Assembly: GCA_019695175.1 (NCBI GenBank)
Contig: JAIBAM010000019.1
Location: forward strand, 1 to 48,831
DNA: 48,831 bases
From: Bdellovibrionales bacterium
GTDB taxonomy: Bacteria > Bdellovibrionota > Bdellovibrionia > Bdellovibrionales > UBA1609
Direction of reading: 5' to 3'
Below the pieces are notes generated by a model. It did not search any database. It saw only the letters and a list, made by a program, of their open reading frames with translations, and was not told the DNA's origin. Numbering within the stretch: the first letter of the stretch is position 1; the number at the start of each line of letters is the position of its first letter. Positions 12,134 through 28,162 of the stretch are shown here, one piece after another. The position numbers were made by a program, and so were the translations under genes.

Positions 12134-12339
12134 AACGAAATGTCTCAATAGAGTTTATGGGGGCCAAAAAGGAATCTACCAATTCTCTGATTTATCACTA
12201 GCAGATTGCCTTTGTGGCAATTCAGCCTGCTGGCCGTTGGTATATAGAGCTTCCAGCTTTAAACTTTCACGCTCATCAAACCAACGACTGATTCCATGGA
12301 GAATTCCATTTTTGTAGGATAGCTCTTGGTCGAGACAAC

Positions 12340-12422
12340 GTAAGAAAGCAAGTTGTTGAACTGCCGGCACCCCACAAATGGGGCAATGGAGATGTGTATC
12401 CAAATTCAACTTGCTTTCTTAC
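12340..12422. repeat. 16-bp perfect inverted repeat around a 51-bp loop
   Basis: GTAAGAAAGCAAGTTG at 12340-12355 is the exact reverse complement of 12407-12422. The right arm forms the left edge of the recognisable transposase fragment. The loop contains a second small hairpin (CCCCA...TGGGG). A 16-bp match this close is unlikely by chance and suggests an inverted duplication made during IS decay. Confidence 0.6.
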
Positions 12423-12823
12423 AGAAGAAGAAAAACTGCAAAGTCATCGTCATGGACCTTTGCAATCCATTTCAAAATTTGGCGCGCACACACTTTCCTA
12501 ATGCAGTAGTGGTGGCCGACAGGTTTCACGTGTTGAAGTTAATCAATCATCATTTTCTAAAAACGTGGGGACAGCTGAATATCGAAGGGAGTAAGAGCCG
12601 CGGTCTTTTATCACTTATGCATAGACATGAGTGGAGTCAGATGAAGGATAGCTCACGGGCAAATCTGAAACGCTATTTGGAAGACAATCCGGCCATTGCC
12701 TCCAATTATAACTTTAAACAAGAGTTGATGAAATTGATCTTGTCGAGAGTGTCTTCAAAATCCCAGGCAAGACCGTTGGTAGTAGATCTTCTAGACAAGA
12801 TTCAAGGGGCTCTACATCAATAA
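12407..12823 (+). pseudogene. ISL3-family transposase fragment, both ends missing
   Basis: The frame gives KVIVMDLCNPFQNLA followed by FPNAVVVADRFHVLKLINHHFL, the middle of an ISL3-type DDE transposase: the MDL Asp and the ADRFHV Asp are the first two catalytic acids. The N-terminal zinc-finger part and the C-terminal third, with the last acidic residue, are missing; the frame stops at 12823 after GALHQ. About 139 residues remain of roughly 400, so it is inactive. It lies 150 bp left of the broken tRNA-Val and outside the integrative element. Confidence 0.75.
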
Positions 12824-12972: not shown

Positions 12973-13038
12973 TGGTAGGGAATGCCGGGCTCGAACCGAC
13001 GACATCCACCTTGTAAGGGTGGCGCTCTACCAACTGAG
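12973..13038 (-). pseudogene. Displaced 3' part of tRNA-Val(TAC) at the element's left end
   Basis: Reading the minus strand, the D-arm remainder, anticodon stem-loop (CTTACAA, anticodon TAC), T-arm (GTCGG TTCGAGC CCGGC), 3' acceptor ATTCCCT, discriminator A and encoded CCA are intact. The 5' acceptor and start of the D stem are replaced by unrelated sequence (AAAAAGA). The acceptor ATTCCCT pairs perfectly with AGGGAAT at the far fragment (31884-31890). Confidence 0.88.
13006..13038. repeat. Left attachment core (33-bp direct repeat)
   Basis: The 33-bp sequence running from CCACC (13006) to CTGAG (13038) is identical to 31848-31880, and also to 31653-31685 inside the intact tRNA-Val. It covers the anticodon stem-loop and most of the D-arm. 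Sequence identity between the two end copies stops exactly at both core edges, as expected for integrase-made att sites. Confidence 0.85.
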
Positions 13039-13305
13039 TCTTTTTCCGTGAAATGACGCTATTACGCCAAAAATTGATGGGATTGGGTTGTCTTGAGTGA
13101 TTTTAGGATTGGAAATGACGGAGAACTCAGAACCTAGAGATGTTTACCACTCCAAGTATATTACCATAAAAAAACCATGAGCTGATCGGCTGAAATACAT
13201 GTGGTCTTTTTGAAAATGGGAACTTCATTAGCCCAGCGCCTTAAATGATGCGTATGCTTCTAAGCACTGATAGCGTCTTATTTTCATTTAACAAACGAGA
13301 ACATT

Positions 13306-14244
13306 TTGATTTCATCATTGAACGCCAAGAACATTATCAAAACCTTTGGTAGCGGTGACAAAGCCTTTAACGCAGTTAATGACCTATCATTTGAATTGTT
13401 TCCTGGGGAGTCCGTTGCTTTTCTAGGTCCCAATGGCGCAGGTAAAAGCACCACCATTAAAATCTTATGTGGAATTCTTTCTCCAACCTATGGAAATGCA
13501 GAAATAAACGGTTTTAAGGTTGGTTCACTGGAGGCGAATAAACAGCTTGGGTTGGTCTTTGGTACTCGCAGCCAGCTTTTCATGCACATGACGGTTTTTC
13601 AGTGCCTTGATTTGATAGCCGAAATTTATTTTTTAACCGGTACTGAAAAGAAAGTTCGAATTTTTGAACTGGCCGAACTTTTCGAGATCAACAGTCTTTT
13701 GGAAAAACGAGTAAGAACGCTTTCTTTAGGCCAAAGAATGAGATGCGAAGTCGTGGCCGCACTCGTTCATAAGCCCAAAATTCTTTTAGCCGACGAACCT
13801 ACCATTGGTTTGGATATTATTGCTAAAAATAGTCTGAGAGAATTAATTCAGAGATGGCGAATTGAAGAAAAAAGCACTCTGCTTCTGACCAGCCACGATC
13901 TTTCCGATGTGGAAGTTCTCTGTGATCGATGCATTTTGATTGATCACGGAATTAAAAAGTATGATGGAAAGCTTTCTGCCTTAAAAGGCAATTTGGCAGA
14001 ACTACGCAGAATTCAAATCACAGTAGCAGATGGGTCCATCCCTACATTTTCAAAAGAAAATTTAATTCACTCTTTGGATAAAGAAGAATTTATCCATCGA
14101 TATGAAGTTAAGACAAGCAAGTTTGCCATTTCAGAAGCCCTGTCCCAGCTTTCAAAACACTATGGTGACAATCTTCAGGATATCAAAATTTCTGAAGTCA
14201 GCCTGGAAGAGGTCTTGGCCCAAAGATATCAGGACAGGTCATGA
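13306..14244 (+). CDS. ABC transporter ATP-binding protein (ABC-2 exporter)
   Basis: The 312-residue ATPase has Walker A GPNGAGKST (about 45-53), signature LSLGQRM (about 139-145), Walker B ILLADEPTIGLD and a switch histidine in LLTSHDLSDVE. The C-terminal 80 residues are the extension typical of NatA/DrrA-like exporter ATPases. The start is TTG at 13306; a second TTG at 13318 is possible. It overlaps the first permease by ATGA. Together with the two permeases it forms a heterodimeric exporter; the substrate is unknown. First gene inside the element. Confidence 0.88.
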   Translation: MISSLNAKNIIKTFGSGDKAFNAVNDLSFELFPGESVAFLGPNGAGKSTTIKILCGILSPTYGNAEINGFKVGSLEANKQLGLVFGTRSQLFMHMTVFQCLDLIAEIYFLTGTEKKVRIFELAELFEINSLLEKRVRTLSLGQRMRCEVVAALVHKPKILLADEPTIGLDIIAKNSLRELIQRWRIEEKSTLLLTSHDLSDVEVLCDRCILIDHGIKKYDGKLSALKGNLAELRRIQITVADGSIPTFSKENLIHSLDKEEFIHRYEVKTSKFAISEALSQLSKHYGDNLQDIKISEVSLEEVLAQRYQDRS

Positions 14245-15038
14245 CCTACGCGAATGTTTTAGAATCTGGACGATTCCACTTCCGACATGCTTGGTTTAAT
14301 CTACGTGAACAATTTTCTGACATTCCAACTGCATTAGCCGCTAATGCTTTGATTCCGTTCTTTGTTTGGATTTTATCCAATGTTTGGCAGCGGTTTAATT
14401 CCCATCAGGGCAATTTCACCTTTGAACAGGTGATTGTCTACATTGGCATCACTGAACTGCTTTTTATGACCTTTGTTCGCGCGCCTTCAGTCAGCAGAGC
14501 CAGTGGCGATTTTTCTATTTCTCTGGCAAGACCACGATCTTGGTTGGTCATTAGTTTTTCAGGATTAGTTGGACGCTCTATTGGTGGACGAATCTTCATG
14601 TTATGCCTCCTGATTTGTGTTTTCCCTATACTAGGTACAGATCTCGCAGAAATATCTAAAGCGGTTTTAAGACTCCTAATTTTGCTTCCCTGGCTTGGTA
14701 TTATTCAGGGATTGTTCGCTTTGTTTTTTTCCGTTGCTCAAGTGCTTTGGCACCAGACCAATTATTTTCTATTACCTTTTGGAAAGATTTTTTTAGTGCT
14801 GGGTGGAGTTTGGGGACCAATTGCAGATTTCAGTGAACCCTGGAGAAAATGGCTTCTCATTTTACCTCCCTCGGATATCTTTTTTCAGCCAGCTTATTTC
14901 TGCGTAAAAGGAAATTTCTATGGAATTTCCGTCTTTGAATGGTTCTTAAGAACTAGTTTTCTCATCTTGGTATTAACCGTCATCAATATTTATTTTTTCA
15001 AAATGGCAAAAACACGACACCAAAGTTACGGTGGATAG
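14241..15038 (+). CDS. ABC-2 type permease, subunit 1
   Basis: The 265-residue protein has about six hydrophobic segments and resembles the DUF990 (ABC2_membrane_6) permeases that come in pairs beside a NatA-like ATPase. The soluble start (SGRFHFRHAWFNLREQF) is typical of the amphipathic N-terminus of such permeases. It is coupled to the ATPase gene by an ATGA overlap and is followed after four bases by the second permease. Inner-membrane exporter; substrate unknown. Confidence 0.8.
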   Translation: MTYANVLESGRFHFRHAWFNLREQFSDIPTALAANALIPFFVWILSNVWQRFNSHQGNFTFEQVIVYIGITELLFMTFVRAPSVSRASGDFSISLARPRSWLVISFSGLVGRSIGGRIFMLCLLICVFPILGTDLAEISKAVLRLLILLPWLGIIQGLFALFFSVAQVLWHQTNYFLLPFGKIFLVLGGVWGPIADFSEPWRKWLLILPPSDIFFQPAYFCVKGNFYGISVFEWFLRTSFLILVLTVINIYFFKMAKTRHQSYGG

Positions 15039-15042
15039 CTTT

Positions 15043-15828
15043 ATGAAAACATTAAGGCTTATTCAACTTGCACTGAAATATCACTGGGATGCTCATAAAT
15101 CTAACCCTGCTAATCTAATCGCTGGTGTGCTTGGAATGGTGGTGAATAACATCATAGTTCTTTGGGGCCTATGGGCCATGCTTTTCGATGGAAAACCTGA
15201 TGGCCAAGCCCTGACGATTTATTTTCTTTCACTCAATGCCATGATCACGATTGCTTGGGGTTCGATTTGTTATTTTATAGGCGGAGTCAGATCACTCGGT
15301 GAATACATAGAAGAAGGAACTCTAGAGCCAATGCTGGCTACCCCAAGAAATCCTCTTGTTCTTGTCGGAATTTCCCAAAGCATTACTCCTGCTCTTGGTG
15401 ATATTCTTCAAGGGCTTTGCAATTTAGTAGCTCTTTTCTTTTTGGCACCGGCTGACATGGTTTTTCGGTGCATTCTCTTTACATTTTCATCCGGAGTAGC
15501 GTTCTTAGGACTTTTTATTTTGACTGGATCGATCCCCTTTTTTGTACGACGAGGAAATGCCCTGGCACAATTGCTATTGGAATGTAATTTAAGCCTCTCT
15601 TTTTATCCCACTGGCAAGATCTTCACCGATAAGGGACGCTTTCTCTTATTCTTGACTCCGGCAGCCGTGACCGGCGTATTACCAATGCAGGCAATTGAAA
15701 ATGGCCATTGGTCTACGGCCTTTATAGCGGTAGTAGGAGCAATGTGCTTCTTTGGATTTTCCATTTTAATATTTAACCTTGGACTCAAAAAATACCAAAC
15801 ATCGAGCTACGTCAGCGCACGCGCATGA
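15043..15828 (+). CDS. ABC-2 type permease, subunit 2
   Basis: The 261-residue protein is of the same permease type, with an amphipathic start (RLIQLALKYHWDAHK) and about six membrane segments. The segment RSLGEYIEEGTLEPMLATPRNPL resembles the family's conserved loop. ATG 15043 is preceded by GGTGG; an upstream GTG at 15031 would overlap the previous stop by eight bases. It ends the exporter operon. Confidence 0.8.
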   Translation: MKTLRLIQLALKYHWDAHKSNPANLIAGVLGMVVNNIIVLWGLWAMLFDGKPDGQALTIYFLSLNAMITIAWGSICYFIGGVRSLGEYIEEGTLEPMLATPRNPLVLVGISQSITPALGDILQGLCNLVALFFLAPADMVFRCILFTFSSGVAFLGLFILTGSIPFFVRRGNALAQLLLECNLSLSFYPTGKIFTDKGRFLLFLTPAAVTGVLPMQAIENGHWSTAFIAVVGAMCFFGFSILIFNLGLKKYQTSSYVSARA

Positions 15829-15911
15829 ATCTGATTTAAATCAAAATGGTCTCCGACCGGGGACCCAATAAATTCAATAAAATCACAATCTTTAGTATCA
15901 GGAGAATTGTG

Positions 15912-16208
15912 ATGGAAACAGAATTTAAAAATATGTGGGACGATGTCTGGAACGAGACTGAACAGGCAGCTTTGCTAGAAAAACTAAAGCAAGAGGTTCG
16001 GTTTGCAAATACAGCTAAATTAATTTTGACTGCTTTGTCTGGCAATCCCGAAGGTGCGACAAAGAAGGAGCTAGCTGCTAAGGCCCGATGTCGATCTACT
16101 CGGTTTAGGGACACACTTTCTCAGCTACTTGAGCAGAAAAAGATCTATAAATCCAAAATCGGAAAAAAAGGCATGCCGTTCAAATACCGACTCCAACCTT
16201 GGATATAG
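15912..16208 (+). CDS. Small putative winged-helix protein
   Basis: A 98-residue protein begins at ATG 15912, eight bases after an AGGAG ribosome site. The middle (LILTALSGNPEGATKKELAAKARCRSTRFRDTLSQLLEQKKI) has the helix pattern and the basic GKKGMPFKY wing-like end of winged-helix DNA-binding domains. The N-terminus is acidic and helical (FKNMWDDVW). It stands alone between the exporter operon and the Pro-rich gene. A regulator of nearby cargo is possible but not shown. Confidence 0.6.
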   Translation: METEFKNMWDDVWNETEQAALLEKLKQEVRFANTAKLILTALSGNPEGATKKELAAKARCRSTRFRDTLSQLLEQKKIYKSKIGKKGMPFKYRLQPWI

Positions 16209-16319
16209 ATATTTTAGTAACGGACACACAAAAGTATTTTTCAAGTGCGTGGACACACTTTTTTCAGTTTTTCCAAAAACCGTATAAAAACAGTCACGCA
16301 CAACATAGAAAGGACAGTA

Positions 16320-16616
16320 ATGAGCAAATTTGATTTTTTAAATAAAAGATTGCAGGAACATGTCGGCGCTTATCGCGATGGTCTGATAAAGACCCAGAAT
16401 GAAGGCCAAACCCGATTGTCAGCTGGTGCTTCTGCTACTCGACAGGCCCAACTAGAGGCGCGGTCCTATTCTTCACGCAACCAGTTCAACCAGGCCCACG
16501 ATAGGGTTCCCAGCAACGCCTTAAAACCGAAACCGCCAAAGCCACCAGCGCCACCAGTTAAACCGAAGCCCGTTGCACCATTGAAACCGCTGGCACCATT
16601 AAAGCCAAAATTTTAG
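16320..16616 (+). CDS. Small protein with Pro/Lys-rich C-terminus
   Basis: This 98-residue protein starts at ATG 16320 after GAAAGGA. The first 60 residues are helical and polar (FLNKRLQEHVGAYRDGLIK, then Gln- and Arg-rich). The last 30 are a low-complexity run of KP, PP and LKP units (PLKPLAPLKPKF). No signal peptide is seen. The 5' flank has GGACACAC twice (16221 and 16252) and a TATAAA at about 16284. Function unknown; the tail could be an extended linker or SH3-like ligand. Confidence 0.55.
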   Translation: MSKFDFLNKRLQEHVGAYRDGLIKTQNEGQTRLSAGASATRQAQLEARSYSSRNQFNQAHDRVPSNALKPKPPKPPAPPVKPKPVAPLKPLAPLKPKF

Positions 16617-16625
16617 CAGTTTCAC

Positions 16626-16943
16626 TTAGGCCGCAAGTTTTCCATTTTTCAACATGCTCAAGTGCTGCTCGTATCGTTCGCGTGCAGGTTTGGAAACTGC
16701 AATGCCGACAATCAGTCCAATACCTGGAAACAGGCCCAAGCAGAATCCAGCAACAACGAGAATCGCAGTTTGTATCGGATGCAGTTCTACCCATGTGTGA
16801 AACTTGAATCCCTGAAAATCAGAACGAAGTTTGGATTTAGAATAAGGCCATTTTCCATCATCAATTGCCGTCAACAGGGCGTTTACAGAAGCAACTCCTT
16901 GGCTTCTTTGCTGCGCTGTAATTTTGAAGTTACTTATCACCAT
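16626..16943 (-). CDS. Small membrane protein
   Basis: The 105-residue protein starts at an ATG at 16943 preceded by GAGAGGAA. A 48-bp longer in-frame form would overlap the lipoprotein gene. It has one or two membrane segments near residues 60-85 (ILVVAGFCLGLFPGIGLIVGIAV) and a basic helical end (KPARERYEQHLSML). It is the last gene of a minus-strand operon after the Xre regulator and a lipoprotein. Unknown function, probably inner-membrane. Confidence 0.6.
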   Translation of the reverse strand: MVISNFKITAQQRSQGVASVNALLTAIDDGKWPYSKSKLRSDFQGFKFHTWVELHPIQTAILVVAGFCLGLFPGIGLIVGIAVSKPARERYEQHLSMLKNGKLAA

Positions 16944-16951
16944 ATTTCCTC

Positions 16952-18055
16952 TCAATCCGATATGAAGCTGTAGGCACCATTGTTGTAGCAAGTAGTCCCA
17001 TATATTTTGCCCTTTGATCCATCTGCAAATGTTATTTCTTTAGAGGAACTATAGCAGATGTACGGAAATTGCATTGAACTTGCCCATGCTAGATCGGGCA
17101 TGAAGGGCTGCAGTGGATCTCGCCGCATATAATTTCTTACTGCGCGTCCAACGAAGAAAGGCTCATCCCAGATCGAATTCACCAAGAATTTCCACTTTCC
17201 GCCAGCGCTGAGATAACCTGATGTGCCGACTTCAACTCCAGAGTTAATTGAGGAATCCCAAATAGAATTGAATTCTTGCGTAGAAATTTTTGTCATATTT
17301 AGCTCGCTACGTATCAGTATCGCAGCAGATCGAAGCTGAGATTGAACTGCAGCACTTGGATCAGGCGGAAAATAGAATTCATTTCCGTTCCTCAAATAAT
17401 CGCAAAAGCCAATTGGTGTACCCGTTGGACAAAATGTCCAATCAATTTCTGAATTGTCGTCTAACTTGTGCAATAAAATATCATTTCCATTTACTTGATA
17501 ATTGTAAAGCTCCTGAGGTGAAAGCAAATCTGATGAAGCAGATAGTTCCAGATCGAGATGCAAAAGTTTGCCATAATCAAATGGGTTTGTCGGCTCGGTT
17601 TCTACGTCCGTTCGCAAATAATAACAGAATACCTGCCGATTAAATGAAAGTCTCCCATCTGGCATTTCTCCGATGATAAGGCGCTTAGCTTCGCCAGTCG
17701 AAGAATTAAGCTCCATGAATATTCTTGAGTTTCTATAGCTGTAGTAATTGCCACTGGCCTTTAAATGCATAGATGGCAGATCGGCCTGAGGTGTGCAGGA
17801 AATTTTTTTATCAAAGCGTTGGTTTGAAGACTTCTCCCATTGGGTTAACGGCACAGGATCAGTCAAGCAACCAAGGGAACTGTTATATTCATTGAAACGC
17901 TGTCGAACCAGCCCATTCGAGTCTTTGACTGTATATTCACCACGGCAAATTGAACCCGAAGCGGTTCCATTAGCATCCTGCTCTTGTTTGCATCCAAATA
18001 GCAAAAACATGAAAATAAAAAGAATGCCGACTTTGGCGTGCCATATTGAAAACAT
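16952..18055 (-). CDS. Putative lipoprotein
   Basis: Starting at the ATG at 18055 (AAGGATG site upstream) the 367-residue protein has a type II signal peptide ending in the lipobox LLFGC, so the mature protein should be lipid-anchored at Cys22. The mature part has several cysteines and no domain I recognise. It is seven bases downstream of the Xre gene and eight upstream of the membrane-protein gene, forming a three-gene operon. A longer in-frame start would run into the Xre gene. Envelope protein of unknown role. Confidence 0.7.
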   Translation of the reverse strand: MFSIWHAKVGILFIFMFLLFGCKQEQDANGTASGSICRGEYTVKDSNGLVRQRFNEYNSSLGCLTDPVPLTQWEKSSNQRFDKKISCTPQADLPSMHLKASGNYYSYRNSRIFMELNSSTGEAKRLIIGEMPDGRLSFNRQVFCYYLRTDVETEPTNPFDYGKLLHLDLELSASSDLLSPQELYNYQVNGNDILLHKLDDNSEIDWTFCPTGTPIGFCDYLRNGNEFYFPPDPSAAVQSQLRSAAILIRSELNMTKISTQEFNSIWDSSINSGVEVGTSGYLSAGGKWKFLVNSIWDEPFFVGRAVRNYMRRDPLQPFMPDLAWASSMQFPYICYSSSKEITFADGSKGKIYGTTCYNNGAYSFISD

Positions 18056-18062
18056 ACCGCAA

Positions 18063-18392
18063 TCATCCTTTTCTGCGAACGGTCGATTTTGAAGGGACAG
18101 CTCGCTCGATTCTAACTTTGAGCCAGCCCTCAAAAAGGCCTTCTGTTTTTAATGTGTTTAAAAGAGCAAAATCTGATTCTTGGCCCGACAACAAAAAATC
18201 AATCGTCACCTCAAAAAAACTTGATAGTGAAAGTAAGTGTTCGGGTGCGTAGGACGCTTTCTCGCCGGACAAGTAGCTTGAAATTGTTGATTTTGGAATG
18301 CCAGTTGCTTTGGATAAATTTGCAGAGTTGATCTGCTGCTGATCCATCAATTGCTTCAAATTTTTACATAAACTATTTGCGGCATCCATCAT
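18063..18392 (-). CDS. Xre-family transcriptional regulator
   Basis: The 109-residue protein carries a helix-turn-helix of the Xre/Cro type: LCKNLKQLMDQQQINSANLSKATGIPKSTISSYLSGEKA at about 8-46, followed by a dimerisation-like helix (LLSLSSFFEVTIDFLLSG). The C-terminus is basic. Two ATGs in a row start it at 18392. It heads the operon with the lipoprotein and membrane protein and probably regulates them or the element's own genes. Confidence 0.85.
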   Translation of the reverse strand: MMDAANSLCKNLKQLMDQQQINSANLSKATGIPKSTISSYLSGEKASYAPEHLLSLSSFFEVTIDFLLSGQESDFALLNTLKTEGLFEGWLKVRIERAVPSKSTVRRKG

Positions 18393-18514
18393 ATAAAATT
18401 TCGACAGAAATCATTGAAAAGTTAAGCAAAGGTTACGCTCATGAATTTCTCGAATAGGCGCAGATATGGGCGATCCATTATAGTGAACTTTGATTCATGA
18501 TCATAAACTTAACC

Positions 18515-19630
18515 TCAGTATGACTTCCCTACCTCCATATTCAGATTTTTTCCGTTAAAATTTTTCATCACATCAGCTTTGTTGAGACTCAAAATCTTAT
18601 ACAGCAAAATTACATCTCGATTCCAATCTTGTGGTGTAGTTATTCTGAGGAAACATTTCTTTCGACCGTCTGGGTGTTGACGGTACATGCGTGCAACGTA
18701 TTGAAGAACCACTTCAATGTTGGTGCTTCGTTTCAGGTCTATCATGAGGTCAGCTTGAGGAATATTCAGACCTACTAGTCCACGGCCCACAAGTATCAAT
18801 GCCGTCTTATTCCCAGCTTTGAAATTCTCTATCTCTTGATTTTGTGGATCATGCTTTGATGTGGCTAAAGCTACACGGTAGCCGCAAGACTCAAGATATT
18901 GTTTGGCTTGCACAGCCTGATTGCAATTTGTGCAAACTACTACTGGGCGATCCATAGAGTCACTATTGGCTTTAGCCTTATTAAATGCGGCTCTAAGATT
19001 GCTGAATATATCATTTAGATTTGTAACTCTGACCAGATCCAAATCTAATGCACTATATAGTCCAAGCTGCTGAACGTCTTCACCTGCAATCGTTGTAATG
19101 GCGAATTTTTTGCCTGAAGTCTCTTGATTACTTTTCACGAAATTTGAGATCGTTCCTGATGCAAGAATCAGCTTCTTTATCTGAAATCGCTGAATGATAT
19201 TTCTGGCGACCGAATTTGAGTTTAACCATTGATGGCATTCATCAACCACGGCGTATTCGAAATGAAGACTAGACCTGATACCGTAGAATTCTTGTGGAAT
19301 AGCGACAGTGACCTGCTTGTCCACCTCTCCCAATGTTCCATATGTAAAGCATGGTTTGATTGGACCGTTTATAAATGTATCGCGAGTCTGCTGCTTAAGA
19401 CTATTTTGGGCATGAGTTAGAAATAGAATTCTGGCATCTGGATTTTTTGAAGTGATGATGTTCAGACAATGAATCAGCACAATGGTTTTGCCACTCCCCA
19501 CTGCTCCATTAAGAAGAGCACCCATGTACACAGTGTTCTCCACATCACCGCAGATCTTTTTGGCCGCCTGAAGTTGATATTCATATTTGCCTGGAATAGT
19601 TCCGTTTTCTTTTTCTGTATTGGCTTTCAT
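18515..19630 (-). CDS. SF2 helicase-like ATPase
   Basis: The 371-residue protein has motif I GAVGSGKT at 42-49, motif II DECH at 130-133, motif III ASGT at 157-160, and motif VI QYVARMYRQ at 310-318 with both arginines. It has two RecA lobes and little else, so it is a compact SF2 DNA/RNA translocase of the DEAD/H type. The expected Q-motif region is the YEYQLQAAKKI segment at 16-26. It is the last gene of a minus-strand operon with a tyrosine recombinase six bases upstream. A role in recombination or defence is suggested by context only. Confidence 0.82.
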   Translation of the reverse strand: MKANTEKENGTIPGKYEYQLQAAKKICGDVENTVYMGALLNGAVGSGKTIVLIHCLNIITSKNPDARILFLTHAQNSLKQQTRDTFINGPIKPCFTYGTLGEVDKQVTVAIPQEFYGIRSSLHFEYAVVDECHQWLNSNSVARNIIQRFQIKKLILASGTISNFVKSNQETSGKKFAITTIAGEDVQQLGLYSALDLDLVRVTNLNDIFSNLRAAFNKAKANSDSMDRPVVVCTNCNQAVQAKQYLESCGYRVALATSKHDPQNQEIENFKAGNKTALILVGRGLVGLNIPQADLMIDLKRSTNIEVVLQYVARMYRQHPDGRKKCFLRITTPQDWNRDVILLYKILSLNKADVMKNFNGKNLNMEVGKSY

Positions 19631-19636
19631 TTTGTT

Positions 19637-20293
19637 TTAAGCCTTTCTTTTCTTAAAATTGTTCCGAGATCCGTTGAAAGAGGAACTGTCGTAGATTTCG
19701 ACGCCGTCCAAGTCAGTTTTAAGGGTGTGTCCATAGAGTGAGGTCGTATTGAGGCTTGAGTGACCAGCGTTTGTTCGAACTGTCTGGATATCTACGCCCT
19801 GGTCCAATAAGTGACTAATATAGGTATGCCTGCAGCTATGAACTGAGAGATGATTTTCAACCTCACAACGATGAAACCAGTATTTTACTCGCTTGCGAAT
19901 GCCTCTAGTGGTGTATGGTTTTTTGCGTTCTGAAGTGAACAAGAAATCATTTTCCGTCGCTGCTTCATCAAGTGTTTCGATTTTGATCTTGATAAATTCC
20001 TTAAGCATCCGCTGCGTGGATGGCATCAATAGAATTTCACGCTTCTTGTTGCCTTTACCTTTTTGAATAATCAGTGACTTGCCTTTAAAATCACGAATTC
20101 TAATTGCAACCAGTTCGAAAACTCTGGCACCAGTTTCAAGCAGCGTTTTCAAAATATAATGGTCTCGAACATGAGAATAGAATCGACCTCGCTGCAAAGC
20201 CAAATCTTTTGCATCCTTAAGATCAGCATAAAGGCGCTGAACTGCGGTGGTGGATAAGAATGAGTCCCTTGTGACAATCCAGTTTCTAGCCAT
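19637..20293 (-). CDS. Tyrosine recombinase, catalytic domain only
   Basis: The 218-residue protein has Arg57 in GARVFELV, Lys78/80, His152 and Arg155 in VHSCRHTY, His178 in AGHSS and Tyr187 in SLYGH, a complete tyrosine-recombinase set. The N-terminal core-binding SAM-like domain of XerC/D or phage integrases is nearly absent. The size is like FimB-type invertases and the compact recombinases of integrative elements. Its start overlaps the end of the resolvase-like gene by eight bases. It is a second recombinase, distinct from the large integrase at 28304. Confidence 0.85.
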   Translation of the reverse strand: MARNWIVTRDSFLSTTAVQRLYADLKDAKDLALQRGRFYSHVRDHYILKTLLETGARVFELVAIRIRDFKGKSLIIQKGKGNKKREILLMPSTQRMLKEFIKIKIETLDEAATENDFLFTSERKKPYTTRGIRKRVKYWFHRCEVENHLSVHSCRHTYISHLLDQGVDIQTVRTNAGHSSLNTTSLYGHTLKTDLDGVEIYDSSSFNGSRNNFKKRKA

Positions 20294-20873
20294 TGCTTTT
20301 TGCCTCCTTCAAAATCCTGGAGACGCTCGAAGCCGAAATGTCGTGACCCTTAGCTTTAAGATTTCGTGCAGTTTTTCTGACAGCACCACATTTTTCATGC
20401 TCTTCGATTACAATTCTTTTCAATTCCGCTGATATCCCAGAATCATGGATGCGGCCCTGAAGCTGAGACTTTATCCACAGCGCATGCTTAATTCGTTTTG
20501 ACTTTAACTCAGCTCGAACGCTGCTAAATTCACTTATCAGGAGTGCCACTCCGTTCAACGATGGATTTGAATCCCTAAGATCTACCTGTTTAGGGATGTA
20601 TATTTCGATGTCCCTTTGAATCCGAAGGTTGAATATAAGCTGGCAAGCCTGCTCGATGCTTCCAAACCGAGAAATCGAATCAGTGACTAACATTGAACCA
20701 GTGCCAAGCAACTTTAGGTCAGAAATCTTGGTGCTCGTTGAGTACTGAAAATCTCCGCCATGTTCACATCTAACCTGAGTGATGAGCACGTTCAGAATCT
20801 GGCCCTGATCCTCGTAACCGAATGTTGGTAAGAAATAGACGACCTTCTTCACGTTAGGCTGCCTTTTTAACAA
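20286..20873 (-). CDS. Resolvase-like protein lacking the catalytic serine, with C-terminal HTH
   Basis: In the 195-residue protein, residues 10-95 pattern-match the serine resolvase fold: YFLPTFGYEDQGQ at the position of the Y.RVS.DQ motif, then LLGTGSMLVTDSISRFGSIEQA matching the resolvase GD.L.V..LDRL.R strand-helix. The nucleophile position carries no serine in the usual RVS context. The C-terminus (VRKTARNLKAKGHDISASSVSRILKEA) is a helix-turn-helix of the resolvase/Hin kind. It may bind DNA without cutting. It sits between the small first gene and the tyrosine recombinase, both overlapping. Confidence 0.65.
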   Translation of the reverse strand: MLKRQPNVKKVVYFLPTFGYEDQGQILNVLITQVRCEHGGDFQYSTSTKISDLKLLGTGSMLVTDSISRFGSIEQACQLIFNLRIQRDIEIYIPKQVDLRDSNPSLNGVALLISEFSSVRAELKSKRIKHALWIKSQLQGRIHDSGISAELKRIVIEEHEKCGAVRKTARNLKAKGHDISASSVSRILKEAKSNG

Positions 20874-21186
20874 TCAGTGACTTTTGAATTGTGGGTGGAG
20901 TTGCATCAATGACTTTTTGGACATGATCAACACCAGCTACTTCAGCCAATGCGGCCTTGTAATGTGGATAACGACGCTCTGAAATTTTAATTTTGAGATC
21001 AAAAGACGGATCTATGGCAACACCAGCCTCTATCTTTGCAATTAGGGTGGACTCCATTTGCTTGAGTTGGACCTCTAAGTCTTCATAGCGCTTTTTGAAT
21101 GCATAATATGACTGCCAAGTGACCTCAAATGCCTCAATTTCCTGGCTAGTTATGAATTCTACTTTAAGGGCTAATGATTTTCTCAT
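20854..21186 (-). CDS. Small unknown helical protein, first gene of the recombinase/helicase operon
   Basis: The 110-residue protein starts at ATG 21186, behind a GGAGG. An upstream in-frame ATG at 21198 overlaps that ribosome site and is less likely. The middle (YYAFKKRYEDLEVQLKQMESTLIAKIE) is strongly helical with a coiled-coil look. I do not recognise a family. It ends 20 bases inside the resolvase-like gene. It faces the 64-residue putative DNA-binding gene across a shared promoter region. Confidence 0.65.
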   Translation of the reverse strand: MRKSLALKVEFITSQEIEAFEVTWQSYYAFKKRYEDLEVQLKQMESTLIAKIEAGVAIDPSFDLKIKISERRYPHYKAALAEVAGVDHVQKVIDATPPTIQKSLIVKKAA

Positions 21187-21218
21187 ACCGTCCTCCATCT
21201 CGCAATCAGTATGACATA

Positions 21219-21262
21219 TTGCATTATCATATGCAAGACTATTTGCAAATGCACTTTATAAT
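21219..21262. promoter_or_regulatory. Palindromic operator overlapping a promoter for the small DNA-binding gene
   Basis: TTGCATTATCATATGCAA (21219-21236) has 6-bp inverted arms, and a second TGCA-rich site (TGCAAATGCA, 21244-21253) follows. A TATAAT -10 box lies at 21257-21262, 26 bases before the ATG of the small + strand gene. The palindrome sits over the -35 region, so binding there would block this promoter and probably the divergent one. Confidence 0.55.
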
Positions 21263-21288
21263 GCTATCCTGATGTCTAAGGATGAGAA

Positions 21289-21483
21289 ATGGCTAAAATT
21301 GATTCAAAAGAGCTTGTAAAAAAAGTTCGTGAAAAAGAAAAACCTGACCGAACCAACTTCACGTTTCGTTTCAATGCGAAATTAATGGAATCTTTTAAAT
21401 CTGTCTGCACAAAGCAAAACATAACTCCTACTGCGGTTCTGGAAGAATTCATGGAGTCTTTTACCAAAGACATGAAGGGTTAA
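21289..21483 (+). CDS. Small ribbon-helix-helix-like protein
   Basis: The 64-residue protein starts at ATG 21289 behind AAGGATGAG. It has a basic start (KKVREKEKPDR), a short strand-like run (TNFTFRFNAK) and two helices (LMESFKSVCTKQNI, TPTAVLEEFMESF), the pattern of ribbon-helix-helix repressors. It lies directly downstream of the palindromic operator and divergent from the recombinase/helicase operon. It is a good candidate for the repressor of both. The next gene begins six bases after its stop. Confidence 0.7.
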   Translation: MAKIDSKELVKKVREKEKPDRTNFTFRFNAKLMESFKSVCTKQNITPTAVLEEFMESFTKDMKG

Positions 21484-21488
21484 TTGAA

Positions 21489-22925
21489 TTGAAAATCGTT
21501 GATAGGAACCAATTTCACCACGTTCAGCTTTCAAGGCAGTCTGATGGCAAACTGTACTCCCTATCCCAGGTGGTGTCGGACTTGCTAGAATCAAAGCAAC
21601 TTTTTATTCATCACGATATTCTTGAACCTTCGATTCAATCCTCTGGTCCCCACCGACATACAATCGTTGAGGAAGTTGTCTATATTCTTAAAGGAATGGC
21701 CACGGTTGTTTTTGGTGAAACAGAGAAGACTGCAAATGAAGGATCTTTTGTTTTCTTTTCTCCAAAAAATGCTCAGACTCATTTTCTTACCAATAATACA
21801 AGCGAAGTCGTCGAGACGATCACCTTTTCCCTGTCCTCGCAATTTGATGCAGTTGTTTTTGAAGGATCTGATTCGGAGCAAATAGTAAGACCGAGTTCTC
21901 ATTTTGACAAAGACCTTCGAGATATTCCGGATGATCCTAAAGTGTGGGAATCTTTTCTTACAGATTTAAAGGCTCAACTGAAGAACAAGACACATCCTGA
22001 AATGCGGCTTAAACTATTTGAAGATATTGGCATGGCGGCAAGGACGCTAATGAAGTTGGACGAAGCTGAATTGTACTTGATGAAAGCTGTCAGTCTTTCA
22101 TATTCATATCCTTCACACAGCCGTCTTGTTCAGAATCTCATTCGGCTGGCTCACGTCTATCAATGGAAAAAGGAATTTGAAAAATCTCACCTTCTTTTTG
22201 ATCAGGCGAAGGCCCTGATAAACGAACAAACAGTTTCTGAAAACTTGCTGGCTGCTTACCATCAACATTTGGGAAAATTGTATTTTGATCAAAACTACTT
22301 CGGTATGGCTCAAGCTGAATTTGGAACCGCCACAAGTATTCGACAAAGAACTTCAGCTCCAACAGATCAACTTGATAGCAGTCAAAACTCACTCGCAGAA
22401 GCGATCAAACAGTGGAATCGCAACATCCCAGCCAATGCTTTCATCCGAAGAGCCGTTCCTAAAGATGCCCAGGAAATACATCAAGCTCACATGAGGTCAA
22501 TTCAAGAGGTTTGCTCCAAACAACATACTGGTGAAGAAATTCAGGGTTGGGGAAATCGTCCTTTCAATGAAGAACAAAGAGTTGCGGCCATAAAAAATGA
22601 TTTTGTTTTAGTGGTGGAGTTCCAAAATTCAGTTGAAGGTTATGGACATTTAAGAATTCTAGAAAAGAATGGACTACGGCAAGCCCATATCTTTGGTCTC
22701 TATTTAACACCAAAGGTGATTGGCCAATCTTTCGGCAAAATGATTTTTGAAATTATGCTTGAAGAAGTAAAGCTATCCAAGATTAAAAAGGTAACACTTG
22801 AGTCCACATTGACCGCAAAATCTTTTTATCGAAAGCAGGGCTTTGTCGATGATGGGTCTCAAATAACTGCCGAAATCGGCGGCAGTAAGGTTCGCTGTTA
22901 CCCAATGAAAATGGAGATTAAATGA
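21489..22925 (+). CDS. Cupin-TPR-GNAT fusion protein
   Basis: The 478-residue protein has three parts. Residues about 30-130 form a cupin (GPHRHTIVEEVVYILKG, then a strand pattern ending in FFSPKNAQTHF). Residues about 150-310 are helical repeats of TPR type (AELYLMKAVSL, HLLFDQAKAL, AAYHQHLGKLYFDQ). Residues about 325-478 form a GNAT acetyltransferase (FIRRAVPKDAQEIHQ start, GQSFGKMIFE for CoA binding, SFYRKQGF near the end). It starts at TTG 21489. The stop overlaps the next gene by ATGA. Such a fusion is unusual and probably senses or modifies a small molecule; the target is unknown. Confidence 0.75.
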   Translation: MKIVDRNQFHHVQLSRQSDGKLYSLSQVVSDLLESKQLFIHHDILEPSIQSSGPHRHTIVEEVVYILKGMATVVFGETEKTANEGSFVFFSPKNAQTHFLTNNTSEVVETITFSLSSQFDAVVFEGSDSEQIVRPSSHFDKDLRDIPDDPKVWESFLTDLKAQLKNKTHPEMRLKLFEDIGMAARTLMKLDEAELYLMKAVSLSYSYPSHSRLVQNLIRLAHVYQWKKEFEKSHLLFDQAKALINEQTVSENLLAAYHQHLGKLYFDQNYFGMAQAEFGTATSIRQRTSAPTDQLDSSQNSLAEAIKQWNRNIPANAFIRRAVPKDAQEIHQAHMRSIQEVCSKQHTGEEIQGWGNRPFNEEQRVAAIKNDFVLVVEFQNSVEGYGHLRILEKNGLRQAHIFGLYLTPKVIGQSFGKMIFEIMLEEVKLSKIKKVTLESTLTAKSFYRKQGFVDDGSQITAEIGGSKVRCYPMKMEIK

Positions 22926-23482
22926 TTCAGATTAAGCCAAACCATGTGGCAATACTGGTTCCATCAGTTCGAAAAGCTGCTGATTATCTCGCACGATTCA
23001 ATTTTCATATAGAAAAAGAAGAGGAATGGGATGGAGAGGGCACCAAGGAAATTTATATCGAAAGAGATAAATCAAACTCGTTACTTCTCATGGAACCAAT
23101 TAAGCCTGGCGCTTACCAAAGAGCTTTGGCTAAACGTGGGCCAGGCCTTCACCATTTAGCTATAGACGTACTTGAACTTGAAAGCTTTATCGAATCTTTG
23201 TCTGGTTCAGGATGGCTATTACATCCAATGAGCATCAAATCCATCAAACAATCGCAGACAGCTTATCTTGCTCGCCCTGGATTCCCTGGTCTTATTGAAA
23301 TACAGGAGAGAAAGGAACTCAACGACCGGCCACTTTTTGTTGAGGAGATTAAATTGAAGATGGATTCGTCTTTTGCTGGTCTTTTAAAGCATATCGGCCT
23401 TGAGGCGATTGTAGAACCATCTACGTCTTTAAATGAATTGTCGATGGGTGATCAGGTTATACAAATGAAGGATCTGTTTTGA
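22922..23482 (+). CDS. VOC (glyoxalase-fold) family protein
   Basis: The 186-residue protein has the VOC start (NHVAILVPSVRKAADYL), a LLLMEPIKPGAYQRALAKRGPGLHHLAIDV centre and a GLIEIQ end of the fold. His8, His at about 77 and Glu at about 119 could form the metal site. The RGPGLHH segment resembles methylmalonyl-CoA epimerase-like members. It overlaps the cupin-TPR-GNAT gene, so the two are co-translated. A small-molecule resistance or modification role is possible. Confidence 0.78.
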   Translation: MIQIKPNHVAILVPSVRKAADYLARFNFHIEKEEEWDGEGTKEIYIERDKSNSLLLMEPIKPGAYQRALAKRGPGLHHLAIDVLELESFIESLSGSGWLLHPMSIKSIKQSQTAYLARPGFPGLIEIQERKELNDRPLFVEEIKLKMDSSFAGLLKHIGLEAIVEPSTSLNELSMGDQVIQMKDLF

Positions 23483-23488
23483 AAAGGG

Positions 23489-24145
23489 ATGGACGCCTTG
23501 AACGAAATTCAAAGACTTGAATTTGCCGATAGTATCTTATGGACCTCCAGCCGAAATGCCCTTACGGCATTGGCAACACAGCACTTTCTGAATCGCCAAT
23601 TTTATGGCTTACCAGAGGACGAGCGTCGCAAATTGTTCAAAACTAATGTAGCAAACAATTACCTGTATCAGGCAAATGAAGCTGTTATCGGCAGGTCAAT
23701 TGTCGATGCCGTCGAAAATCTTAGAGCGGAGAATAAGCGTCAAGCACTACCATTAGGCGCAGAGGACCTTGAAGAGCTGCGAAAACATCGAGTTGTGATC
23801 AGTCATCCTGCCAATATTAAATTTTCTAATCCAGATGTTCAAAAATTCTATGACAATGACGGCCACTATAAAGACCCAACGGCTGTTAGAATTTGGCGAA
23901 TTCGCCAATCTCTTTTAAATGAACTGACCAAGATAGGCTCACAACAAGAAAGTAAATTTCCAAACCAAGTTACCGTCCAACTCGGCACCTGTGAGCTGAT
24001 CTATGGCGCAATCGCCGTCAGTATAAACGACTGTGAACCGAAACCAAACTTTGTAGAACTTCAAAAGTCAGTTTTTGACTATTTCAAAAAGTTTGAAGAT
24101 GTGATCAAGAAATCTGCTTATACACCAACTTTATCACCAAAATAA
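23489..24145 (+). CDS. Unknown cytoplasmic protein
   Basis: The 218-residue protein follows the VOC gene by six bases and so is part of the same operon. No signal or membrane segment and no known motif is seen. It is helical and rich in charged residues (QFYGLPEDERRKLF, LPLGAEDLEELRKHR). It converges with the HEPN-like gene, whose stop lies one base away, so the two ends are packed tightly. Confidence 0.6.
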   Translation: MDALNEIQRLEFADSILWTSSRNALTALATQHFLNRQFYGLPEDERRKLFKTNVANNYLYQANEAVIGRSIVDAVENLRAENKRQALPLGAEDLEELRKHRVVISHPANIKFSNPDVQKFYDNDGHYKDPTAVRIWRIRQSLLNELTKIGSQQESKFPNQVTVQLGTCELIYGAIAVSINDCEPKPNFVELQKSVFDYFKKFEDVIKKSAYTPTLSPK

Positions 24146-24146
24146 A

Positions 24147-25151
24147 TTATGGTCCTGCCGGTTTGGGATTGATAAGACCGTTCAGAATTTCAAGGCCATC
24201 CACGATCAACAAACATCGAAGCGACGAATATGGTTCATCAGCATAACTCAATTCGCCGCCATGCAAAATTTGGTGACGATTGGGATAGGTACTTTTGTTA
24301 AGAGGATCTCCAGGAAACCAAGCTTGAAACATTTCATTGCAAACTACGTCTGAGATCACTGTCTCTCCCATTATTTCTTGATAGACAGGAAGCATTTTTG
24401 TGGAGTTGTCTAGATCTGGCTTTGTGGCAGCAATTTGTTTCTTTCGAGCGGCCATCGATTTGAGACCTGGATAAATATCAATAATGATACCATCCATTTG
24501 CATTAAAAATAACGGAATGGACACTAGGTAATCCTTTGCCAGGTGAGCATCCAAAGCCCTTTCAAGAACCTTCATCCTAGGCTTGTACAGCGGATTTTTA
24601 TTCCAGAAATCTTTCAACTGCACAATTGTTTCTGCCTGTGCAAATTGGTCATCAAAATATTTCCAAGCGTCGTTTCCATAGGATTTTATTTCTTGAATCA
24701 AAACGATGTCATATGTGTTTTCAGCTAAAAACGGGGTAAGAAAAATTTTATGCGCCTTCAGCGTATCTCTCAGTTCAGTAGTCCTTTGATCTGACTCTTC
24801 TTGGTGCTTCCTTATTTTCTCAATAAATGCTGGATCAAATATTGGTTTGATTAATTTTTCAATGGCCTTGTGAACATTTGCAGTTGGCTCTATTGCCTTT
24901 TGAATAGCTCCAATCATTGCGGCGTTGGGAAGCATCGCTTTGGTCAACGCAGACATGTCTGGCATTGCTTTCTGAATGGCATTTGCCATCAGTTCCTGTT
25001 GTTTGAAAAATGGAGAGAGCGACTCCATCAATTTTTTGGATGGATCGAGCTGAGCACTGATGGCCTCCATTGCTTTCCTTTGCTCGGCTCCAATTTTGGC
25101 TACTGAATCTATGATGGACTTATCAATTTGAATCTTTGCATTCTTAGACAT
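24147..25151 (-). CDS. Putative HEPN-like abortive-infection protein
   Basis: The 334-residue protein starts at ATG 25151 behind GGGGGTGG; a longer frame upstream looks non-coding. The first 120 residues are amphipathic helical repeats with an MxKAI pattern (AIQKAM, ALTKAM, AIQKAI, HKAIEK). The C-terminal part ends in NRHQILHG at 291-298, where Arg292 and His297 fit the Rx4-6H motif of HEPN RNases and the NRHxxxHG motif of abortive-infection-like proteins. HEPN toxins are common in defence islands. Domain assignment rests on one motif, so it is tentative. Confidence 0.5.
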   Translation of the reverse strand: MSKNAKIQIDKSIIDSVAKIGAEQRKAMEAISAQLDPSKKLMESLSPFFKQQELMANAIQKAMPDMSALTKAMLPNAAMIGAIQKAIEPTANVHKAIEKLIKPIFDPAFIEKIRKHQEESDQRTTELRDTLKAHKIFLTPFLAENTYDIVLIQEIKSYGNDAWKYFDDQFAQAETIVQLKDFWNKNPLYKPRMKVLERALDAHLAKDYLVSIPLFLMQMDGIIIDIYPGLKSMAARKKQIAATKPDLDNSTKMLPVYQEIMGETVISDVVCNEMFQAWFPGDPLNKSTYPNRHQILHGGELSYADEPYSSLRCLLIVDGLEILNGLINPKPAGP

Positions 25152-25645
25152 CAGACCACCCCCAACTTTAATATGAAACGCTTTTGACCTGAAGTCGATG
25201 CCTGAGACGCCTCTGCTACAGGTCAACCAGGCTAGCCTATAGTCTAGGTAGAAATCACAAATTAAGTCGAAAATGGACTGGCTTAGGGTAATTCGCTGAA
25301 TCTGAATCAATATTGATCAGCATACTTCTGGGCACCAAAAAAATAATATGACCGTCATTACCACTTAATATCGTCCTGACAAGAAATTTGGCCCGTTTTT
25401 GAAAGAACCAAAAAATATTGCGGTACTATACATAAAACAGCAACACACGTGAGGTTCTTATGAAGAGATAATTATTAATTTGAGGAATTGAAGGAGCACT
25501 GATCTCGCAAAATCAGAATACTCCAATTCCTCAATCAATCAAACAGAAATTTTGAAGCAATACAAAATGTTGGTCATGAGCCGCAAATGGGTCGCTCTAC
25601 GCCAAAAATCTACCAAACCCATCCGTAACTATTGAGGAATAAAAA
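25152..25645. other. Gene-free region before the replication module, candidate origin
   Basis: This 494-bp stretch holds no gene. It contains TTGAGGAATTG at 25480-25490, its perfect inverted copy CAATTCCTCAA at 25524-25534, and TTGAGGAAT again at 25632-25640 directly before the initiator-like gene's start codon. The region around 25340-25480 is AT-rich. The repeats lie just before a Rep-like operon and could be binding sites of its first protein, used for replication or autoregulation. Confidence 0.45.
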
Positions 25646-26215
25646 ATGAGAAGAGAAAGAAATATGGATAAGTACATTAAATTTATCCTGCAACACAAGC
25701 TACTAACGCCAAATCAAAAGATTTGGCTAGTCTATTGGTTCTTGGACCAAAGAGGATACGCTAGGTGCTTTTCCGCAACGGAAAAAGAACTTGGCATTTC
25801 AAAGGGCACAACTCGCAAACGAATCGTACAAGATCTTTTGGATCTCAACATTCTGAAAATTATTAGTCATAAATCATTTGGTAAAAAACCAACGCCAATT
25901 TTTGATTTCACAGATGACTTTGAATTGCAGGTCTCAGAGTTCGTTAAAAATCCAAAAGATTATTGGCTTGAGGAAGAGTTTACGCTTCCTTTTGACGAGA
26001 ATCCTCTTCACGTCGTCTCAAATAATCTTCCACAAGACCTAAATAACAAAAGAACAAATAACCAAAATATACAAAACAACGAAGAACTTTCGCCCTCTGA
26101 CTATAGAGAAAGGTATCCTGATTTAGATTTTTCTACGTTGTCAGAAATTACGACAATTTTTAACAACCAATATTTCGATCCAACAATAGCCAAACTAATT
26201 ACGAGGACTGTATGA
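25646..26215 (+). CDS. Putative replication initiator with N-terminal winged helix
   Basis: The 189-residue protein begins at ATG 25646 behind GAGGAA. Residues about 15-75 (LLTPNQKIWLVYWFLDQR, SATEKELGISKGTTRKRIVQDLLDLNILKII) form a winged-helix pattern like plasmid or phage replication proteins. The second half is low complexity and Asn/Gln-rich. It precedes a DnaB/RepA-like helicase and a primase with 4- and 8-bp overlaps, an order like the RepC-RepA-RepB' modules of mobilisable plasmids. The C-terminal half is of unknown function. Confidence 0.6.
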   Translation: MRRERNMDKYIKFILQHKLLTPNQKIWLVYWFLDQRGYARCFSATEKELGISKGTTRKRIVQDLLDLNILKIISHKSFGKKPTPIFDFTDDFELQVSEFVKNPKDYWLEEEFTLPFDENPLHVVSNNLPQDLNNKRTNNQNIQNNEELSPSDYRERYPDLDFSTLSEITTIFNNQYFDPTIAKLITRTV

Positions 26216-27279
26216 GTAACATCAACAATAAAGATCAAGGGTTAAATAACAACAGCCAACAAAGAACCAATGAAAAAGAGGACCTTCGCCGTAAGGCCTA
26301 TGAAATTCAAAAGCATGAGACCGAAACAAGGCATGCAGAAATCGAACGTGGCAAAAAAGAACTTATTCGCCTAGATTCAGTATCCGTCAGCCCAATGGAT
26401 GACAAGCAGCTTGTTGAGATGAAAGCAGCAAACATCGAGTATTTCAACTCTGCCAAGACTGCACCCAAATTTCTGCTACCTGAACTTTCCCATGGCGTTT
26501 CCTTAACCAGAAAGTCTCTAACCATGATTGGTGCGCCCTCTGGTGAGGGCAAGAGCAATGTCAGCGCCAACGCTACTTACTCCATGGCCCTTCAAGGGAA
26601 AAGAGTGCTTGTCATTTCTAACGAAGAATTGGCATCAGACATTTACAATAGAGTTACTTGCCTTATGAAGGGTTGGACTTACAACGACCATGGAAAATTC
26701 ACTGAAGAGCAGATCAAGATCTTCAATGACTATTATGAGATCTTACGCACAAAAATTACTGTGATTGATCACACCATGGCACCAACTACCACGATTGAGG
26801 GAATAGACAAAATTTTTGAAGATCTTAAAAGCGATTCGACAAAATACGACCTCATCATCATTGATTATTACCAAAATGTTGATTCTTCATCACTCAATAA
26901 GAAAGTCGACATTTATGAAGCTCAAACTAGATTCGCAAATGCACTCGATAAATTCAAAAATATATACCCAGCACCGATCCTTTTGTTGGCACAAGTTGCA
27001 AAGGAAACAAAAAAAGATCAGCGTTCATTCAAAGAAAGAATCGAAGGACGAAAAATTATCTATAACAAGGCCACAGTAGCCATAGAACTGGTCACGGATC
27101 ATGCTGAATGCAGAACAGAGTGGATTTTTCACAAGAGCAGATTTGGAAGATCAGGAGTCAGAGTTTCAACAGGGTGGGATCGCGGCCTGTATGTTTCATA
27201 CACTGAAGAGTTTAAAACCGAAATTGCTAAGAAAAATCTTGATGAAGCCCTTTTAAAAATGCAGGTGAAAAATGACTAA
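26212..27279 (+). CDS. RecA-fold DnaB/RepA-like replicative helicase
   Basis: The 355-residue protein has Walker A GAPSGEGKS at 107-115, a Glu-containing strand at about 143-146 (VLVISNEE) and Walker B LIIIDYYQNV near 210-220, the order of the DnaB C-terminal and RSF1010 RepA domains. There is no DnaB N-terminal domain; instead the first 80 residues are helical and charged. It should unwind DNA at the fork for the element's replication. It overlaps both neighbours by four and eight bases. Confidence 0.78.
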   Translation: MSNINNKDQGLNNNSQQRTNEKEDLRRKAYEIQKHETETRHAEIERGKKELIRLDSVSVSPMDDKQLVEMKAANIEYFNSAKTAPKFLLPELSHGVSLTRKSLTMIGAPSGEGKSNVSANATYSMALQGKRVLVISNEELASDIYNRVTCLMKGWTYNDHGKFTEEQIKIFNDYYEILRTKITVIDHTMAPTTTIEGIDKIFEDLKSDSTKYDLIIIDYYQNVDSSSLNKKVDIYEAQTRFANALDKFKNIYPAPILLLAQVAKETKKDQRSFKERIEGRKIIYNKATVAIELVTDHAECRTEWIFHKSRFGRSGVRVSTGWDRGLYVSYTEEFKTEIAKKNLDEALLKMQVKND

Positions 27280-28147
27280 TGAGCAAAAAGAATTCATGAA
27301 TCTTCTTTTCAATCAAGCAGAAACGGTCTGTCCGTCTCACAACAAATACGCCTACCACAGTGTTGCCAAAGAGGACGTTGATACAAATAAAGTTTTCCTT
27401 GTTTCAGAGAACTCTGCAATTGATGTCAAAATCATTGACTGTTCTGACATCAACTTGATCTCAATCAATCCCATTAACGGATTCAGAAACGACGCCAATG
27501 TTACAGCCTTTAGATCATTCTTGATTGAGGTCGACAACCTTCCTCTTGATCAGCAAAGGGCCTACATCGAAGACCAGCTAAAAGTACCAGCAAGTTCATG
27601 CGTATTTTCAGGCGGAAAATCGTATCACTACTTGATCACTCTTAGCGAAGATCTTCCAAGCGTGGCTGCTTACAGATTTTATTCTGAATGGATTTTAAAC
27701 ATTTGCTCTCTGGCCGATCAAAACACAAAAAATCCATCACGGCAGACTCGCTTTCCAGGAAACATTCGATTTGATGGCCTGAAACAGGATCTAATCTTCT
27801 TAAAAAACAGAGTGGGTCAGGAAGAATTGTTCAGGTGGATGTGCCAGCACGAGGATAAAAGGCCAGTTAGTCAAATCAAACGACAAATTGTGCCTGTGGC
27901 CTTTGCAAAAAAAATTCCACCGTGGGTTCAGAACGATCTAAATCTCGGAATTGATACAGATAGAAATGTAACGTGGTTCAAGCATGCCTGCAGTTGTTTT
28001 AAGAACGGCTGGGAGTTGGGCGATCTCATCGAATACTTTGAACAGTATTTTGAACCTGAAGCTGATTTTTCCAAACAAGAATGGCTATCTACCATAAAGT
28101 CTGCGTTTAAAACAATTCGGCATGATGAACAGTATAACTCTAAATAG
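27272..28147 (+). CDS. Primase-like protein of archaeo-eukaryotic type
   Basis: The 291-residue protein has an acidic pair in SFLIEVDNL (Glu86 and Asp88), then SGGKSYHYL at 113-121, and PSRQTRFPGN at 155-164, the motif order of AEP primases like RepB'. The C-terminus has a helical part (FKNGWELGDLIEYFEQYF). It would prime replication of the element with the RepA-like helicase. The stop codon is inside a short hairpin. Confidence 0.68.
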   Translation: MTNEQKEFMNLLFNQAETVCPSHNKYAYHSVAKEDVDTNKVFLVSENSAIDVKIIDCSDINLISINPINGFRNDANVTAFRSFLIEVDNLPLDQQRAYIEDQLKVPASSCVFSGGKSYHYLITLSEDLPSVAAYRFYSEWILNICSLADQNTKNPSRQTRFPGNIRFDGLKQDLIFLKNRVGQEELFRWMCQHEDKRPVSQIKRQIVPVAFAKKIPPWVQNDLNLGIDTDRNVTWFKHACSCFKNGWELGDLIEYFEQYFEPEADFSKQEWLSTIKSAFKTIRHDEQYNSK

Positions 28148-28162
28148 ACGCTTAAAGCGTCT
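28146..28162. terminator. 7-bp hairpin at the end of the replication module
   Basis: AGACGCT (28146-28152) and AGCGTCT (28156-28162) form a stem with a 3-nt loop over the primase stop codon. No T-tract follows, so it may be a weak terminator or an RNA-stability element. Confidence 0.3.

Follow-up and report, generated by a model that had tools for sequence, protein, structure and literature searches.

The four-gene operon described here is, as read from its sequence, a composite resolvase-type module and neither a free-standing cassette nor an unknown four-part system, because pairs of its genes recur in one conserved slot of related genomic islands. It lies in the window, by which we mean the whole 48,831-nucleotide stretch of contig JAIBAM010000019.1 (Bdellovibrionales bacterium) that was analysed, and consists of four co-directional minus-strand open reading frames (21186–18515) encoding a small protein, a serine-resolvase homologue, a tyrosine recombinase and an SF2 helicase. 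We favour, with moderate confidence, a reading in which this operon would be the element's second, dedicated recombination module, resolving multimers or otherwise stabilising the element, with the tyrosine recombinase active and its partners assisting.

All four minus-strand frames of the row given in a preliminary description were present with the identities claimed for them. The small-protein gene has its longest reading frame at 21198–20854, the more likely start is however the ATG at 21186, since a GGAGG lies 5 nt upstream and its relatives start at about the same point in the alignment, giving a protein of 110 residues (20854–21186). The resolvase-like frame taken from a TTG runs from 20873 to 20286 (195 residues) and overlaps the small-protein gene by 20 bases, but the GTG at 20852 appears the better start, with AAGG 9 nt upstream, a product of 188 residues (20286–20852) and a junction that adjoins the stop of the small gene. 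Hence, of the overlaps of 8–20 bases reported earlier, the larger one disappears while the 8-base overlap between the resolvase-like gene and the tyrosine recombinase gene (19637–20293, ATG at 20293, 218 residues) stands. The 6-base gap reported between the recombinase and the helicase (18515–19630, ATG at 19630, 371 residues) was likewise borne out (19637 versus 19630). GC content by codon position in the resolvase-like frame (0.48/0.37/0.48) fits a coding frame. Judged by their spacing the four genes are likely to form one transcript; a consensus scan of the minus strand at the operon returned no promoter-like site.

The tyrosine recombinase matched the Pfam Phage_integrase family (E = 5e-28) and aligned with XerD across a complete R-K-H-R-H-Y catalytic set (R57, K80, H152, R155, H178 and Y187), which is also conserved with its 57–58% identical relative in genome G057. 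Only residues 17–191 align, to XerD 103–281, and the N-terminal core-binding domain is missing, in agreement with the earlier description of a recombinase made of the catalytic domain only. Matches to this protein among plasmids were uninformative (1577 records, every one below 60% identity).

Four catalytic resolvases from the equivalent slot in other islands were used to align the resolvase-like protein, and one of these linked the alignment to gamma-delta resolvase. The protein's match to the Pfam Resolvase family was marginal (E = 0.064). The YARVS motif has become YFLPT, so that the equivalents of R8 and S10 are replaced and the nucleophile is absent, as had been noted before. The equivalent of R45 is leucine and those of D67 and R71 are serine, leaving only the R68 equivalent of the catalytic set, assignments which beyond S10 rest on alignment at 15–25% identity. 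Two stretches of the catalytic domain are also deleted. On this alignment the protein is a dead enzyme. In the predicted model the first 75 residues, and most of the catalytic domain, fall below a pLDDT of 50; the last three helices reach about 90 and align with the helix-turn-helix (HTH) of the slot resolvases, making a retained DNA-binding C-terminus credible. No match to this protein was detected in viral contigs.

The small protein had no match in Pfam, nor in phage and plasmid records. Its AlphaFold2 model (pLDDT 82) has a long helix at residues 18–57 followed by a beta-alpha-alpha-beta unit, and a fold search with this model gave no PDB match, just weak matches to uncharacterised viral proteins. 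Homologues of this coiled-coil protein were found in genomes G057, G229, G246, G177 and G091, and stand upstream of serine resolvases and tyrosine recombinases alike. In a tree of six sequences the tyrosine-partnered copies, including that of the window, separate from the serine-partnered ones (support 82/86, which is modest, with long branches), a grouping which suggests that the small protein of the window now works with the tyrosine recombinase. A third arrangement was observed in G051 and G091 (loci L028 and L029), where small-protein homologues (two in tandem in G091) are followed by an ATPase-like gene of the viral replication type and then by a longer XerC-like recombinase.

Two RecA-like domains were recognised in the helicase (Pfam ResIII, 4e-14; Helicase_C, 6e-8), which carries a Q motif, GSGKT, DECH and QYVARMYR (QxxARxxR), hence SF2 motifs I, II and VI are all present. 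Its relative in G026 is 26% identical, colinear to the C-terminus and also adjoins a tyrosine recombinase gene, with a gap of 5 bases compared to 6 in the window. A profile scan of 84,980 species genomes recovered the G026 locus again and no other, and the helicase had no match in viral contigs (single-sequence and profile scans) or in plasmids (tblastn). A tree of the tyrosine recombinases did not separate a single gain of the helicase from two.

The operon is carried by an integrated element of 18,842 bp. Copies of a 33-bp core lie at 13006, 31653 and 31848, and the element splits a host tRNA-Val gene, since the outer flanks joined at the first and last core copies form a perfect tRNA-Val(TAC) gene. 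The attL core (13006–13038, plus strand) lies on the host gene's displaced 3′ half, and the attR core (31848–31880, plus strand) is followed by its 5′ half (to 31892). The host gene is not restored at the junction (13006–31892), the element instead bringing a complete copy of its own (31620–31695, minus strand). No other close copy of this tRNA-Val(TAC) gene was detected in the assembly (97% complete), hence the island may have made itself indispensable. A tyrosine integrase of 429 residues (28304–29593, plus strand; Phage_integrase, 4e-4, a weak match) lies near the right end beside the tRNA-Val gene, which bears out the earlier statement that the cassette and the element's integrase are separate. 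Replication-type genes occupy 25646–28147 on the plus strand; two encode a winged-helix-like protein and a DnaB-like helicase, and the third had no match in Pfam.

To place the operon among related islands, 369 genomes of the phylum were searched with the helicase, the adjacent lipoprotein, the small protein, the recombinase and the dead resolvase, and the neighbourhoods were then read. Co-occurrence of the four families, which the preliminary description had put forward as a check and whose rarity it had named as a refuting outcome, proved rare, with all four genes together in the window only, but pairs of them (small protein and tyrosine recombinase, small protein and serine resolvase, tyrosine recombinase and helicase) recur in one slot. 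The slot comparison covers nine Bdellovibrionota loci, several in draft assemblies and with divergent regulators, in which a divergent RHH repressor stands on one side, an Xre-type HTH gene on the other, and the recombinase gene or genes between them are exchangeable. This includes a catalytic serine resolvase alone (G080, G178), the small protein with a catalytic serine resolvase (G229, G246; in G177 a contig end cuts the locus), a tyrosine recombinase alone (G309, G351), the small protein with a tyrosine recombinase 58% identical to that of the window (G057), a tyrosine recombinase with the compact helicase (G026) and, in the window, the small protein, dead serine resolvase, tyrosine recombinase and helicase.

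In the window the RHH/Arc-like repressor (21289–21483, plus strand) has Arc-like PHROG matches and is 52% identical to its counterpart in G246 and 45% to that in G026, the three sharing 45–52%. The Xre-type regulator (18063–18392, minus strand; HTH_26, 1e-8) is homologous to the HTH proteins of other slots, most of which detect each other as homologues. The RHH genes of G057 and G309 and the HTH genes of G026 and G309 were recognised mainly from where they lie and what type they are, and less from strong sequence similarity. Gene order is altered in G026, with the HTH gene between the lipoprotein and RHH genes, and in G309; both G309 and G351 carry their HTH gene on the other strand. Two further loci, L003 and L012, had been drawn in by a weak match and a lipoprotein match respectively and were rejected as slot loci, and a DNA search of phage records returned no match. 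A separate integrase, either tyrosine or large serine, was located at a tRNA gene in all five islands examined (window, G026, G229, G246 and G057), hence the slot enzyme is a second recombinase and not the integrase. Near the G026 island, a large serine recombinase gene is cut by the locus edge (L006:3-1136), which suggests stacked islands there.

The divergent intergenic region between the RHH gene and the operon (21199–21288) contains an inverted GCATTAT...ATAATGC pair offset by 37 nt. Aligned with each other, the divergent regions of the window and G246 agree at 33 of 45 bases (maximum of 25 in shuffles), including the pair, which is 37 nt apart in both genomes and 36 nt apart in G057. We take the motif as a regulatory feature because its outward TATAAT-like hexamers are what two divergent promoters would give, and the region is likely to hold promoters or an operator. 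It is possibly also a recombination site, although the motif itself was set aside as evidence for recombination, as divergent −10 boxes or an RHH operator explain it equally. The upstream region is single copy in the genome, and one such site per genome suits recombination between copies in a multimer, not inversion.

Gene content, catalytic residues, slot conservation, separate integrases and element ends were read from the sequence, and the resolution function, the helper role of the dead resolvase, the role of the helicase and the regulation are what we infer. A resolution function is indicated by the slot equivalents being standard serine resolvases, by the separate integrases and by replication genes in islands such as those of the window and G026, the latter with a VapE-like replication gene. 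The module would break multimers of the excised and replicating circle down to monomers, or keep the element stable in some other way, with catalysis by the tyrosine recombinase. As this enzyme lacks the core-binding half, site recognition would probably come in part from the small coiled-coil protein and the HTH of the dead serine resolvase. The SF2 helicase would probably be a DNA motor, remodelling or branch-migrating the junction, although it could serve replication or repair instead, and the divergent RHH protein and the Xre protein would regulate expression. A more elaborate form, in which two chemistries are combined and the dead serine resolvase acts as a site-recognition and synapsis scaffold for the tyrosine recombinase lacking a core-binding domain, together with a shared coiled-coil adaptor and a dedicated SF2 motor, we consider rather unlikely.

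The dead serine resolvase, of which there is one example, may just be in decay. It could be a functionless relic of an ancestor with the small protein and a serine resolvase, which gained the tyrosine recombinase (and helicase) downstream, a possibility we hold tentatively and below our favoured reading. The loss of most catalytic residues and of two catalytic-domain stretches fits such a relic, as does its identity of only 15–25% to the catalytic slot resolvases, compared to 26–44% among those, and G057 has the small protein and tyrosine recombinase with no serine gene. Against decay, the frame is open over all 188 codons despite strong divergence, has a coding-like codon profile and a plausible ribosome site, and overlaps the next gene by 8 bases; the DNA-binding domain still models with high confidence. 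The short tyrosine recombinase and its small partner could also be a second integrase/excisionase system left by an element nested in the island, since tyrosine recombinases are often integrases, and G051 and G091 have the small protein, ATPase and longer XerC-like recombinase in a similar row. The absence of att-like repeats flanking the operon, and the conserved RHH and HTH neighbours which tie it to the island framework, make this improbable.

FimB/FimE-type invertases are tyrosine recombinases of about 200 residues that consist of the catalytic domain only. The window enzyme resembles them in build, gives a weak match to a tyrosine-type DNA invertase model (E = 4e-4) and has a predicted lipoprotein adjacent, whose expression it might control by flipping a promoter or gene segment. 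We give little credence to such inversion, suggested in the preliminary description: no invertible segment or inverted repeats of useful length were found in the operon region, the upstream site has no second copy in the genome, and the same slot is filled by serine resolvases in sister islands. The suggestion of anti-phage defence, with the helicase as effector or sensor, fared worse and is very improbable. Helicases and recombinases do occur in defence islands and the element has other accessory genes, but PADLOC gave no specific match, only generic similarities for the helicase (best E = 3e-6, to a DinG-type helicase model) and nothing meaningful for the other three proteins; furthermore the sister-island equivalents are plain resolvases and the genes are not carried together as a set.

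The operon is a variant of the swapping between serine and tyrosine resolvases already known in Tn3-family transposons, which use TnpR (serine), TnpI (tyrosine) or TnpS+TnpT, a tyrosine recombinase with a helper (PMC7157771). In both cases enzymes of the two classes fill the same role within one mobile-element family, and TnpS+TnpT likewise pair a tyrosine recombinase with a non-catalytic helper. The islands differ in being tRNA-targeted and integrative with no Tn3-type transposase seen, and in having a dead serine resolvase co-operonic with the tyrosine recombinase and an added helicase. TnpT is divergent from TnpS with the resolution site between them, whereas the divergent gene here is the RHH repressor and the intergenic region, though it contains a motif, is a candidate site. 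The second protein of the operon and its slot equivalents in G229, G246, G177, G080 and G178 are homologous to gamma-delta/Tn3 resolvases and keep the HTH, but the nucleophile and most of the remaining catalytic residues are gone from the window copy. Xer recombinases also couple a tyrosine recombinase to a DNA motor, the FtsK translocase, in XerCD/dif and single-recombinase forms (PMC9765430). The window enzyme aligns to XerD with all active-site residues, however it has no N-terminal core-binding domain, its motor would be SF2 and not FtsK, and it is element-borne; besides it, the host genome encodes tyrosine recombinases of XerC/D size. The Gamma-mobile-trio (GmtX/GmtY/GmtZ), also a multi-gene mobile unit with a tyrosine recombinase, was rejected, with the GmtY model scoring 17 bits against a cut-off of 340 and no Gmt partner models matching.

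In the open-access literature searched we found no description of islands of this family or of the small adaptor protein, nor of the pairing with a helicase or, above all, the operon of dead serine and live tyrosine recombinases. Serine and tyrosine recombinases have unrelated folds and chemistry. A slot that swaps them while retaining the same small partner and regulators would allow one to study how a mobile element switches from one recombination chemistry to another with maintenance kept, and one island appears to be caught with both recombinases, one dead and one apparently live. As an adaptor for both recombinase classes, the small protein family would be open to experimental test.

Other genes were observed around the operon. 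The predicted lipoprotein beside the slot (16952–18133, minus strand) is 55% identical to its relative in G026 and 43% to that in G229, and across the family (L006:6443-7732, L011:10574-11653, L012:8634-9779) identity to the window copy is 30–55%. Lipoproteins lie near the slot in three islands, and one is on a different, high-GC contig (G319) next to a SNF2-type helicase gene. Beyond the RHH gene, a single frame (21489–22925) combines a cupin domain with TPR repeats and a GNAT acetyltransferase, and is followed by a frame that is glyoxalase-like (VOC) by sequence appearance. Just left of attL (12176–12823) are pieces resembling a broken ISL3-type transposase, and the left end of the element (13306–15828) carries a three-gene cargo that by sequence appearance is an ABC transporter, with an ATPase and two permeases.
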